Positions 41,890 to 45,325 of a DNA stretch of 64,000 nucleotides are shown in pieces (position 1 is the stretch's first letter; every line of letters begins with the position of its first letter). Source of the stretch: Aquibacillus rhizosphaerae (GTDB taxonomy: Bacteria > Bacillota > Bacilli > Bacillales > Amphibacillaceae). A program made the position numbers and the translations under genes. The stretch lies in contig NZ_JASTZU010000037.1 of the NCBI RefSeq assembly GCF_030282825.1, positions 124,001 through 188,000 of the forward strand, given 5' to 3'. The notes beneath the pieces were generated by a model, which worked only from the letters and a program-made list of their open reading frames with translations, had not been told where the DNA came from and ran no database searches.

Positions 41890-41919
41890 AAAAGGATTGG
41901 CGAATTTGCCAATCCTTTT
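41890..41919 (-). terminator. Rho-independent terminator of the ars operon
   Basis: AAAAGGATTGGC pairs perfectly with GCCAATCCTTTT around a 6-base loop, directly after the HesB-like gene. Confidence 0.85.
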
Positions 41920-41924
41920 AAATA

Positions 41925-42206
41925 TTAGCAACAATCCTCGATGCCCTGAAGTACAAGACCTTTTTCTCCGTCTTGTTCCTGACAATCTAAAATTAAGCTA
42001 TTTGTTTGATCTTTTATAATTGGGTCTATCGCAACCACGATTCCATTAATTTCTTGCACTTCATCATCCGCTTGTGGCTCATCCAGAGCCACTCCTATTT
42101 TAGGACTTCCTCAGCCCATGCCTGCAAAGTGAATTCGTAATGCTTGTTTGCCTTCTTGTTTCATAATATCAGTTAATAATATTTTAGCTTGTTCACTAAT
42201 CTTCAT
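41925..42206 (-). CDS. HesB/IscA-like protein with in-frame UGA, candidate selenoprotein
   Basis: A 93-codon gene of the HesB/IscA type (A-type iron-sulfur scaffold fold), interrupted only by TGA at codon 32 (42113-42111). The frame reads ALRIHFAGMG-TGA-GSPKIGVALDEP. The family has Cys at that place (G-x-G-C-G-x-P). The frame stays open after it (EINGIVVAIDPII, SLILDC) and ends with two cysteines. Starting 18 bases after the UGA, GTGGCTC-TGGAT-GAGCCAC forms a perfect 7-bp hairpin whose 5-base loop has G at position 2. This fits published bacterial SECIS rules (loop 16-37 bases from UGA). GAGGTG lies before ATG and a terminator follows. HesB-like selenoproteins are a known bacterial family. 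The alternative is a nonsense mutation. Confidence 0.7.
42074..42092 (-). promoter_or_regulatory. Candidate bacterial SECIS hairpin
   Basis: A 7-bp stem and UGGAU loop within the HesB-like coding sequence. The loop begins 25 bases after the UGA. A second small stem TCCTA/TAGGA lies between them. Confidence 0.5.
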
Positions 42207-42251: not shown

Positions 42252-42608
42252 TTACAATAATGGTAAGTCTTTTGTTTTTGTTTCTTTTTTAACTATTTCC
42301 GTCTTCTGAATACCAGTCCATGTAGCTAGTTCCTGATTAGAAGGATACCCACCTATTTTTTGTACTTGCTTATCCACTAGCACAACGGGTAAAGCATCAA
42401 TTCCTTGTTCTTCTAATAACTTTTGAACTTCTTTTTCATCAACAAAAAACTGAGGTTCGTTTCCTAAGTTATAACGCTTGATATCTACACCTTTTTTCTC
42501 AAGTAAGAACACAGCATTTGCTATTCTCGTAAGCTCTGGGTCTACATGAGGTCCACATACCCCTGTTGGACAACATAACGCTGGATCAAAAATTTCTATC
42601 TTAGCCAT
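42252..42608 (-). CDS. arsD: Arsenite metallochaperone ArsD
   Basis: A 118-residue thioredoxin-fold protein that carries As(III) or Sb(III) to the ArsA ATPase. The metal-binding cysteines 12, 13 and 18 are in FDPALCCPTGVCGPHVDPE, as in characterised ArsD. The later vicinal Cys pairs of the E. coli plasmid protein are absent, as in many chromosomal forms. It lies 35 bases after arsC and 45 bases before the HesB-like gene. Confidence 0.93.
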   Translation of the reverse strand: MAKIEIFDPALCCPTGVCGPHVDPELTRIANAVFLLEKKGVDIKRYNLGNEPQFFVDEKEVQKLLEEQGIDALPVVLVDKQVQKIGGYPSNQELATWTGIQKTEIVKKETKTKDLPLL

Positions 42609-42643: not shown

Positions 42644-43063
42644 TTATTTACCTGTGTTTGCAAACCTTTCAATACGTTCACCAATTTCGTCACGAACACG
42701 TTGAAAGAAAGCCCACTTTTCTTCTTCGGTTCCTTCTGCTTTTGCAGGGTCATCAAACCCCCAGTGTTCTCGTTCCTTGTTAGGAGGTGTCGCTGGACAA
42801 ACATCATTGGCATGTCCACATAGCGTAACTACCAAATCTGCTTTTTTAAGTAAATCCTGGTCAATCGTATCAGATGTTTGATTAGATATATCAATTCCTA
42901 CTTCCTTCATTGCTTTGATAGCATTGGGATTGACACCATGCGCTTCTATTCCTGCTGAATACACATCATATTTTCCTTTCAGATGCTCTTTCCCCCATGC
43001 CTCAGCCATTTGGCTTCTGCAAGAATTACCTGTACAAAGAAAATAAATAATTGGTTTCGCCAT
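42644..43063 (-). CDS. arsC: Arsenate reductase, thioredoxin-coupled
   Basis: A 139-residue enzyme reducing arsenate to arsenite, of the low-molecular-weight phosphatase fold. The P-loop [16 protein letters not shown] gives Cys10 and Arg. The redox relay Cys pair is in [17 protein letters not shown] (about 82 and 90), regenerated by thioredoxin. AAGGAG precedes ATG. Upstream are AT-rich half-sites TTATATAA likely bound by ArsR. Its product arsenite would go to ArsD/ArsA. Confidence 0.94.
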
Positions 43064-43110
43064 TTAAAAAACTCCTTATTTGTAATTTGATTTTGTCTAT
43101 ACTGTTTGAG

Positions 43111-43142
43111 TTATATAATTCTATATAGATAGATTTATATAA
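43111..43142 (-). promoter_or_regulatory. Candidate ArsR operator upstream of arsC
   Basis: TTATATAA occurs at 43111-43118 and 43135-43142, 16 bases apart. The same word flanks the site upstream of arsA. It suggests a second promoter for arsC-arsD-hesB. Confidence 0.4.
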
Positions 43143-43174
43143 ATAAGTGATCCAAAAATGTAATAAGTTACTTT

Positions 43175-43522
43175 CTAATCACAACACACTCTCAAGCCTT
43201 TTTTTTCTAAATCTATAATTTTTTCTTGTTGTTCTGGAAAAAAGCTCGTAATACTTTCGATTAGTGGATATACCTGAGAATCTGTGTTGATTCGGTAAAA
43301 TATCCATTGTCCTTGTCTTCGTTCTTTTACAATCTCAGCAGCTTTTAGTTTTTTAACATGTTGACTAATGGAAGGCTGGCTCATCTGTAAGATTTCAACA
43401 AGTTCACAAACGCAACATTCATCATGCATTAATAAACAAACTATACTTAATCTTGTTTTATCACCTAGTAACTTCATAACTATTGAACCATGTTCAACAT
43501 CTAGCTTATTTATTGTCGTCAT
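43175..43522 (-). CDS. arsR: ArsR-family metalloregulatory repressor
   Basis: A 115-residue winged-helix repressor released by As(III)/Sb(III). The sensor cysteines lie in DECCVCELVEIL (alpha-3 type Cys-Val-Cys, with one more Cys), followed by the DNA-reading helix MSQPSISQHVKKLKAA and wing RRQGQWIFYR. The C-terminus ends RVCCD, offering a further thiol pair. ATG 43522 is six bases after AGGAGGA; an ATG two codons earlier is too close. It is 36 bases downstream of arsA in the same direction. Confidence 0.92.
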   Translation of the reverse strand: MTTINKLDVEHGSIVMKLLGDKTRLSIVCLLMHDECCVCELVEILQMSQPSISQHVKKLKAAEIVKERRQGQWIFYRINTDSQVYPLIESITSFFPEQQEKIIDLEKKGLRVCCD

Positions 43523-43558
43523 ACGCATTCCTCCTAACCTAATTCAAACAATAAAAAC

Positions 43559-45325
43559 TTACGCTTTCGTTATTTGTTTTAATCGCTCAACACCAATAAT
43601 GTCATCGGCTTGCCAAGGAACAATGATTGTTTCTGATGCCAACTCATTAAATACTCTTTCAATCCACGTTTGCTCCGCATAGGCCCTGCCTTTTAGGACT
43701 GGATCTTCTGTGGTAGTCGCTTGAAAGCTTTGATTTATAATCCACCATTTCGGTTCAATCTTTGCGCGACGTAAATCTTCTTGTAAACGATTCGCTTCAT
43801 GAACAGGAGTGGCTTCTGGCAACGTAACTAGAGCTACAAAGGTTTGATTTGGATCACGAAGCCGCGGTATCAATTTCTGCACATAGGCTGGCATCTTTCC
43901 GTTTGCTCGCTCCACTTCCTGGTGATAAGACTCTGCTGCATCTAATAGTAGTAACGTATGTCCTGTCGGCGCGGTATCAATAACAACAAAAGCGTCGTCC
44001 GATAGATCTACTGCTTTTGCAAAGGCTTGAAACACGGCAATCTCTTCTGTACAAGGTGATTCCAAATCCTCTTTAACAAATGCAATTTCATCTTCTGTTA
44101 GCGAATCATCTAATTTTTCCAATACTTGTTTTTTATAGAGATCTACCTCATGTTTTGGGTTGATACTGCTTACCGTTAGATAATCAGAAAGTTGGGTCTC
44201 ATCTAATACATGCATAAGGTGAGCTGCAGGATCTGTGGTTGTTAAATGAACTTTATGTCCTTTTTCAGCTAGTCCAACTGCAACCGCAGCTGCCATTGTA
44301 GTTTTGCCTACGCCACCTTTGCCCATTGTCATAAATACACCATGCTCATTATTACTAAGCTGGGCTACTATCTTTTCCAGAGATGGCAATTGCATGTCTA
44401 AATTTGATTCGTACTTTCCCTTATTACCGATTTCACTATCTATAAATAAATTCTTCAAAGCATTAATTCCTGTCAAATTATACGGCACAAGGGGTAAAAA
44501 ATAGTTTCTCATATCATATAATAAATTCGAAATCCCCTTAAGCTCTTGTTGCTGCTTTTCCTCTAATTTACAGGCTACTAAGTCATTGGATTGTCGTTTG
44601 AATACCCCGTTAATGATTAGCGACTGATTTGTAATCCCTAATTGGTTTAGTTCTAAAGAAGCTCTTTTTGCCTCATCTAGTGAGGAACGATCTGGTCTAG
44701 CGACTAACACAAGTAAGGTTTCCTCTTTGTTTGCCAATGCTCGCATCGTTTTTTTATATAAACTTTTTTTCTTTTCCAATCCTGCTAGTGGCCCTAAGCA
44801 AGAAGCACCGTGTGTACTCTCATCTAGAAACGAATTCCATGCTGTTGGTAGCTGTAACAATCGTAACGTATGTCCTGTCGGTGCCGTATCAAAAATAATA
44901 TGGTCAAACTGTTTAGTCGTTTCTTCATTTGCTAATAAATTTGTAAACTCATCAAATGCAGCAATTTCTACTGTGCAAGCACCTGATAATTGTTCTTCCA
45001 TATTTGTTATGGCAGCCTGAGGAAGTTTACCTCGGTACGGCCCAATAATTTTCTCGCGATACTCCAATGCTGCTTGTTCAGGGTCTAAATTTGCAGCGTA
45101 AAGATTAGGAATAGTAGGAATTTGGGTAGGATATGTTTCTAGTTCCATCTCAAATACATCTTGTAAATTAGAAGCAGGATCTGTACTTACAATCAGTACT
45201 TGTTTCCCTAATTCCGCTAAAGCAACAGCAGTAGCACAAGCAGTAGAGGTCTTCCCAACTCCACCTTTGCCAGTAAAAAATAAATTTCTATTGTTTGAGA
45301 TTAGTTCTGGACGTAAACGTTCCAT
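43559..45325 (-). CDS. arsA: Arsenite-stimulated ATPase ArsA
   Basis: A 588-residue protein made of two homologous P-loop ATPase halves (about 1-290 and 325-588). Walker-A-type loops are FTGKGGVGKTSTA near residue 17 and MGKGGVGKTTMA near 335; both switch motifs DTAPTGHTLRLL and DTAPTGHTLLLL are intact. Cysteines in SGACTVEIAAFDE and SPCTEEIAVFQ are the metalloid site Cys of each half. It normally energises the ArsB or Acr3 arsenite permease, but no permease gene is in this cluster. Its place at the head of the operon, before arsR, is uncommon. AAGGAG precedes ATG. Confidence 0.93.
   Translation of the reverse strand: MERLRPELISNNRNLFFTGKGGVGKTSTACATAVALAELGKQVLIVSTDPASNLQDVFEMELETYPTQIPTIPNLYAANLDPEQAALEYREKIIGPYRGKLPQAAITNMEEQLSGACTVEIAAFDEFTNLLANEETTKQFDHIIFDTAPTGHTLRLLQLPTAWNSFLDESTHGASCLGPLAGLEKKKSLYKKTMRALANKEETLLVLVARPDRSSLDEAKRASLELNQLGITNQSLIINGVFKRQSNDLVACKLEEKQQQELKGISNLLYDMRNYFLPLVPYNLTGINALKNLFIDSEIGNKGKYESNLDMQLPSLEKIVAQLSNNEHGVFMTMGKGGVGKTTMAAAVAVGLAEKGHKVHLTTTDPAAHLMHVLDETQLSDYLTVSSINPKHEVDLYKKQVLEKLDDSLTEDEIAFVKEDLESPCTEEIAVFQAFAKAVDLSDDAFVVIDTAPTGHTLLLLDAAESYHQEVERANGKMPAYVQKLIPRLRDPNQTFVALVTLPEATPVHEANRLQEDLRRAKIEPKWWIINQSFQATTTEDPVLKGRAYAEQTWIERVFNELASETIIVPWQADDIIGVERLKQITKA

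Follow-up and report, generated by a model that had tools for sequence, protein, structure and literature searches.

On the minus strand of the window, the whole 64,000-nt stretch of Aquibacillus rhizosphaerae DNA analyzed here, five co-directional genes form an arsenic gene set. The first is arsA, encoding an arsenical pump-driving ATPase (43559..45325; TIGR04291, 843.7 bits, cut-off 650). It is followed by the gene of an arsR-type metalloregulator (43175..43528; NF033788, 98.4 bits, cut-off 55), by arsC for a thioredoxin-type arsenate reductase (42644..43063; TIGR02691, 234.8 bits, cut-off 174.3) and by arsD for an arsenite metallochaperone (42252..42608; NF033727, 129.8 bits, cut-off 90). 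The last gene, 45 bp behind arsD, is a HesB-like (IscA-fold) gene (41925..42206) with one TGA in frame, proposed as a selenocysteine (Sec) codon on the basis of translation, profiles, relatives and fold. The scores above cut-off confirm the arsenic operon named in the first-pass annotation, although the order given there, arsR-C-D, was incomplete and reads arsA-arsR-arsC-arsD-hesB. Shared direction, close packing and conserved linkage mark the HesB-like gene as part of this ars operon.

Two Aquibacillus-like genomes (G009 and G010) have an ACR3 gene in the interval from arsR to arsC, whereas none is found at 43063-43175 of the window, and a search of the entire source genome gave no ACR3 match. 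ArsB was found in the source genome, 81% identical to the ArsB of the relative G150. Elsewhere in the genome (L175), an arsR-arsB set is followed by a thioredoxin-reductase-like gene.

The HesB-like gene and its in-frame UGA

Translation of the minus strand over 41925-42206 gives 93 codons with a single TGA at codon 32 (42113-42111), in the context GMG-U-GSPKIGVALDEP, and a C-terminal IEDCC followed by TAA. The translation bears out the earlier description of a frame intact on both sides of the TGA, with a start codon and a ribosome-site-like stretch (GAGGTG, 8 nt 5' of the ATG). The terminator described with it stands only in part: the GGATTGGC/GCCAATCC inverted repeat with A4/T4 flanks is present 3' of the stop codon (41890..41919, minus strand) and is terminator-like by eye, but it is absent from the list of a simple terminator scan. 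Under the standard reading, the sole listed frame of at least 50 aa inside the gene is 55 aa long. A generic scan returned 10 promoter-like sites versus 14.7 in shuffles, hence no excess.

The TGA aligns with the position that Cys homologues fill with the first Cys of their GCCGP motif, in agreement with its proposed location at the first cysteine of the family. Among the relatives read, codon 32 is either Cys or TGA, and no other internal stop occurs within the match. When Sec was replaced by Cys for the search, TIGR01911 (HesB_rel_seleno) was the highest-scoring NCBIfam profile, with 60.7 bits against a cut-off of 66.35; the next profiles, NF038090 (IscA_HesB_Se) and TIGR00049, are also below their cut-offs, and a Pfam search of the protein gave no match. 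The structure model, obtained for the window protein with 17 relatives, has a mean pLDDT of 90.4, with a mean of 51 for residues 91-93, where the Cys pair is located. Its best Foldseek matches in the PDB are IscA structures (1r94, 1x0g and 1s98; for 1r94, E 1.7e-6 and TM 0.79 by query length), identity being 14-22% across structure matches with E up to 0.001. A profile search against PDB sequences returned AQ_1857, HI1723 and IscA (YfhF). These comparisons predict that the product is a HesB-like (IscA-fold) protein in its selenocysteine form.

The residues of the proposed metal site differ between the two forms. The residue after Sec is Gly in all 61 distinct Sec forms, and the Sec-Gly position is occupied by Cys-Cys in 45/45 distinct Cys homologues of the same order (three Clostridium rows left out). 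The C-terminal Cys pair is present in 63/69 Sec rows and 40/50 Cys rows, duplicates counted. This suggests that one selenol may be matched by two thiols.

SECIS-like hairpin and selenocysteine machinery

Bacterial SECIS elements are hairpins located just 3' of the UGA, with a G in the apical loop. Such a hairpin, GUGGCUC-UGGAU-GAGCCAC, is found on the minus strand at 42074..42092; exactly as first reported, its 7-bp stem begins 18 nt after the UGA and its loop is UGGAU. The 44-nt stretch folds with -16.9 kcal/mol (z -3.54, 0/200 shuffles as good), whereas a 65-nt stretch with extra flank is unremarkable (z only -1.42, 18/200 shuffles as good).

For 60 distinct TGA genes, the stem was read ungapped at a constant distance from the TGA. 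In these genes, 92.6% of the stem cells are paired, compared with 20-48% after sliding one arm by 1-3 nt, and two-sided pair changes are present, e.g., GC to TA and GC to TG. The same cells in Cys genes of the order (n = 45, again leaving out the three Clostridium rows) are paired in 32.7%, inside the 31-46% of their own slid versions. The five inner pairs are complete in 53/60 TGA genes versus 0/45 same-order Cys homologues, and the loop TGGAT recurs in 58 of the 60. Since the hairpin is coding, synonymous codon choice was tested. The hairpin Leu codon is CTG in 61/61 genes, compared with 63/415 at the other Leu positions of these genes, and the Glu codons are GAG in 60/62 versus 84/478 elsewhere, comparisons in which the relatedness of the rows makes p-values overstate independence. 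The codon matching the hairpin Leu is CTG in only 2/45 Cys genes. The hairpin encodes a conserved ALDEP stretch, so protein constraint could explain part of its conservation; as the whole cause, however, the codon choice and the contrast with the Cys genes argue against it. Both the fit to SECIS rules and the covariance check proposed at first pass came out positive: across the 60 TGA genes, the hairpin is conserved as a SECIS-like element, with compensatory changes and forced codons. The recurrence of the same TGA, spacing and hairpin in relatives is more than chance.

A looser scan, accepting any hairpin with a G early in the loop, found 5-8 bp stems in 4/24 family Cys genes, at other positions or with a different loop. 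A single site is listed by the terminator scan (shuffled mean 2.7), namely the plus-strand complement of the hairpin; consequently, a plus-strand terminator reading of it is possible.

The genome contains one tRNA-Sec (65.1 bits, over the cut-off; ARAGORN: tRNA-SeC(tca)), and selA, selB and selD are located around it on contig C58, all exceeding NCBIfam curated cut-offs. The genome check for selA, selB, selC (tRNA-Sec) and selD that had been recommended thus finds all four. SelD has its own in-frame TGA at codon 18, in the context GGUGCKIG, with a predicted hairpin soon after. Two matches resembling the formate dehydrogenase alpha subunit, both below the family cut-off, have no internal stop. 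Another species of the genus (G013) encodes a tRNA-Sec without a match for arsA or the HesB-like gene, which indicates that the Sec system in the genus is not kept for the HesB-like gene alone.

Two neighbors of the sel genes were also noted (L010:894-5540). In the interval from tRNA-Sec to selD, there is a glycosyltransferase resembling NF038229 (below cut-off) with weak SenB similarity. At the same locus, 3' of selD, a phosphonate-type ABC transporter shows weak similarity, below cut-off, to TIGR04553 (putative selenate binder).

Sec and Cys relatives, arsenic linkage and plasmid copies

In the taxonomic family of the source genome, 28/159 genomes have a HesB-like match (E 1e-6), 6 with TGA and 22 with Cys forms only; in all six TGA genomes, the TGA is the codon of the first Cys in the GCCGP of the Cys forms. 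In the order, 201/397 genomes were matched (E 1e-10), with many single-TGA genes among the matches listed. G-x-G-U is present at the codon 32 position in 40/40 order-wide TGA loci fetched, which were hand-picked among the matches listed for holding one TGA. The distribution of tRNA-Sec follows that of the TGA form. Within the family, it is found in 6/6 TGA genomes versus 5/22 Cys-only genomes (p 0.0012), and in 32/159 genomes overall. Within the order, it is found in 36 of the 37 genomes that supplied the 40 TGA loci versus 1/13 Cys-only genomes (p 1.4e-9), both sets being hand-picked among the matches listed. The one TGA genome without a tRNA-Sec match (G189) nevertheless has selB over the cut-off; in the one Cys-only genome with tRNA-Sec (G280), selB is also over the cut-off. 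G189 holds three HesB-like genes (on C24, C46 and C68), of which one is a Cys form and the others have TGA, and offers a natural Sec/Cys comparison. In Romboutsia timonensis (L170), the Sec-type gene is preceded on its own strand, at a distance of ~330 bp, by a Cys-type paralogue (AGMGCSG).

Linkage to arsenic genes is pronounced within the family. The arsA gene occurs in 28/159 genomes, and the HesB-like gene in 25 of these 28 versus 3/131 others (p 1e-22); the three arsA genomes without a HesB match are G006, G007 and G040. Of the 31 HesB-like matches in the family, 28 lie beside ars genes (27 by 1.5-kb flanks, one by coordinates), and the three away from them (G011, G012 and G125) are all TGA forms. 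In the order, 11/40 TGA loci are ars-linked. The 109 distinct sequences comprise 43 Cys forms beside ars genes, 5 Cys forms not beside them, 20 Sec forms beside them and 41 Sec forms not, with the proviso that an ars link can be missed in 1.5-kb flanks. The ars-linked Sec forms include those of Aquibacillus halophilus, Aquibacillus saliphilus, Litchfieldia alkalitelluris, Evansella sp. AB-P1, Calidifontibacillus oryziterrae, Rossellomorea aquimaris and three other named genomes. The placement at the end of an ars operon, which the first-pass annotation considered unusual, proves otherwise: HesB-like genes are routine arsA partners in the family, and the Sec form is ars-linked in 20 distinct sequences, the one from the window included. 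The same 20 sequences refute the idea that the arrangement is unique to this genome.

On the tree, built from 92 columns and with 30/106 inner branches open, the label of Sec beside ars requires 8 changes (gains or losses), and at least three of these changes are forced by well-supported (starred) branches. With the exception of L018, the Cys-ars rows cluster in a single starred group (44 rows), which includes two Cys rows without the ars label. The 9 rows of the starred group that contains the window gene are without exception ars-linked Sec forms. A sign test on the tree found too few independent Sec/Cys changes to tie Cys to ars. The label changes may be read as repeated uptake of the Sec form by ars clusters, the alternative being an old link followed by losses.

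The 41 of 61 distinct Sec forms found away from ars genes stand beside varied genes, which suggests that the basic job of the protein is not arsenic-specific. Their neighbors were compared at 35 loci, with six near-copies (L157-L160, L166 and L171) left out. At 10/35 of these loci (L128, L129, L130, L135, L137, L138, L142, L145, L146 and L149), the Sec-type gene is located 57-87 bp behind genes of one family, which we take to be dipeptidase-like. At L122, L132, L141 and L144, it follows what is presumably a lipoprotein resembling metal-binding transporter parts. At 5/35 loci (L137:11233-11592 and four others), a second small family of ~119 aa with a GGCAS-like stretch occurs nearby; we presume that it may be another HesB-like branch.

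Relatives were also detected in 20/72,556 plasmid records (E 1e-6), of which four were opened. The plasmids of Cytobacillus firmus M7 (p1) and C. oceanisediminis CK22 carry the TGA form with the hairpin, unannotated (L177:6001-6276 and L178:6001-6276). In both cases, the genes ahead are arsR, an arsenic pump gene, arsC, arsD, arsA, trxB and a phosphatase gene. The gene was missed most likely because of its UGA, although the PLSDB gene table is incomplete and the annotation in the original plasmid record could therefore differ. A scan of these two Cytobacillus plasmids found no tRNA-Sec, so that the possibility of plasmids bringing their own was rejected for both. Three further Cytobacillus plasmid matches (H2, H4 and H5) have no annotated feature beneath them in the PLSDB table. 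A Priestia plasmid (L179:5001-5285) carries, in an ars set, a Cys-type HesB-like gene labelled "adhesin", as are several other plasmid matches; this is likely a wrong name.

Proposed role and comparison with known systems

The computed support comprises the open frame, the UGA conserved at a single position, covariation of the SECIS hairpin, the Sec machinery, the ars linkage and the IscA fold. A functional selenoprotein gene within the ars gene set is the best explanation, with a probability of about 0.9 that covers the selenoprotein gene in its ars set and not its function. The candidate selenoprotein of the first-pass annotation is thereby supported: the machinery is present, no scattered stops were found in relatives, and none of the results named there as refuting appeared. 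From this, we infer Sec insertion in the cell, co-transcription with the ars genes, a bound ligand and a benefit under arsenic, and likewise a functional connection of selenium to arsenic handling.

In the proposed mechanism, UGA32 would be decoded as selenocysteine by the SelA/SelB/SelD/tRNA-Sec of the genome, directed by the adjacent SECIS hairpin, and the A-type-like (IscA/HesB-fold) product would be made together with the ars gene set. The putative metal site would consist of the U32 selenolate and the C-terminal Cys92-Cys93 pair, the latter situated at the low-pLDDT end of the model. During arsenite stress, this selenol/thiol site may carry a soft ligand, which could be an Fe-S cluster destined for enzymes damaged by arsenite, or As(III) en route to ArsD/ArsA or the pump. 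In this broad form, covering both ligands, a soft-ligand carrier has roughly even odds.

The more specific versions are each held with less confidence. A tentative reading, short of an even chance, is that of an A-type carrier for Fe-S repair, whose Sec/Cys site delivers clusters and which is found in ars sets since arsenite damages thiol and Fe-S enzymes. It is consistent with the IscA fold, with matches to IscA/HesB family profiles, most of them below cut-offs, and with the occurrence of the protein in non-ars places. A dedicated As(III) carrier with no Fe-S role, binding arsenite three-coordinate through U32 and Cys92/Cys93 and handing it to ArsD/ArsA or the pump, appears doubtful. In its favor, arsA is the constant companion of the HesB-like gene in the family, the tree requires 8 changes of the Sec-beside-ars label, with those forced by well-supported branches among them, and the exchange of Sec-Gly for Cys-Cys, taken with the C-terminal CC, implies that soft-ligand groups are kept or raised. 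However, the majority of the distinct Sec forms lie away from ars genes, the predicted fold matches Fe-S carriers, and ArsD in the same set is already an arsenite chaperone.

A genuine selenoprotein that follows arsD merely by chance, with no arsenic-related function, is improbable. It would account for the Sec forms found elsewhere and for those that follow other gene families in recurrent order, but it fits poorly with the uniformly Sec and ars-linked starred clade of the window gene, with the Sec form in plasmid ars sets and with the near-constant presence of the HesB-like gene in family arsA genomes. A broken HesB gene, with the TGA as a true stop or sequencing error and a truncated or unused frame, would agree with the break in the standard reading at the 55-aa frame and with the missing annotation on the Cytobacillus plasmids, but such a pseudogene or error is ruled out for practical purposes by the same codon, the lack of any other stop and the preserved hairpin and codon choice in 60 distinct genes, as well as by the Sec machinery, tRNA-Sec being present in nearly all TGA genomes.

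A wider proposal, offered tentatively and at less than even odds, is that ars operons of this Bacillus-like order repeatedly took up a Sec IscA-fold protein, whose selenolate and C-terminal thiols would carry either As(III) or an Fe-S cluster that resists arsenite. In evolution, one selenol would be exchangeable for a vicinal Cys-Cys, and the plasmid copies would make a movable operon dependent on the Sec system of its host. The tie to ars genes gives the HesB-like selenoproteins a concrete, testable role and provides natural Sec and Cys versions of one protein within one operon type. It also points to a resistance-operon gene on plasmids that annotation overlooks.

The fold of the modelled protein, that of the HesB/IscA type, is common to the A-type Fe-S carriers IscA and SufA (1r94, 1x0g, 1s98 and 2d2a). 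A-type carriers have three Cys ligands, the last two arranged in IscA as a C-terminal Cys-x-Cys. In contrast, the window protein has Sec for the first Cys and an adjacent Cys92-Cys93 pair at the C-terminus; it is consequently described as working like an A-type carrier and is not filed as IscA.

HesB-like selenoproteins with Sec at the first HesB cysteine are a known kind, according to the sections considered of a 2006 study (PMC1794560) and of two reviews (PMC13188914 and PMC9312934). The consulted part of a 2016 survey (PMC5029168) counts 90 such proteins in 86 organisms, sixth by organism number among bacterial selenoprotein families. In the table of PMC13188914 (2026), HesB-like precedes the rows under the heading "Predicted with high confidence", with the motif UxGP, and the same source places it in a group whose functions are largely uncharacterized. 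The window gene shares with these proteins the TIGR01911-type feature of Sec (or Cys) at the first HesB cysteine, and differs, as far as these excerpts describe them, in being part of an ars set, in its TIGR01911 score below cut-off and in its motif, UGSP instead of UxGP, a review-table label that is perhaps not defining; many TGA relatives have UGGP. Taking the motif into account, the gene is assigned to the HesB-like selenoproteins by homology, not by formal TIGR01911 membership.

HesB-like genes in ars operons are likewise on record, namely orf7 in the ars1 operon of Bacillus sp. CDB3 (PMC4562236 and PMC5481582) and hesB in an Exiguobacterium ars operon (PMC8779447), both known here from the papers alone. 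As in the window, these genes share an ars operon with arsA and arsD, to the extent covered by the portions cited. The string "selen" is absent from the main text of PMC4562236, and "selenoprotein" is absent from PMC5481582 in the portion consulted. In the open-licence PMC literature, no paper joining a HesB-like selenoprotein to ars operons and nothing on point for arsenite and IscA was found. Selenoproteins of arsenic metabolism have been described, and the relevant passage of PMC13188914 lists arsenite methyltransferase and arsenate-reductase-like proteins. Sec in an arsenic-handling protein would be common to these and to the window protein, but those named in that passage are enzymes of other families, whereas the product of the window gene is of the IscA fold.
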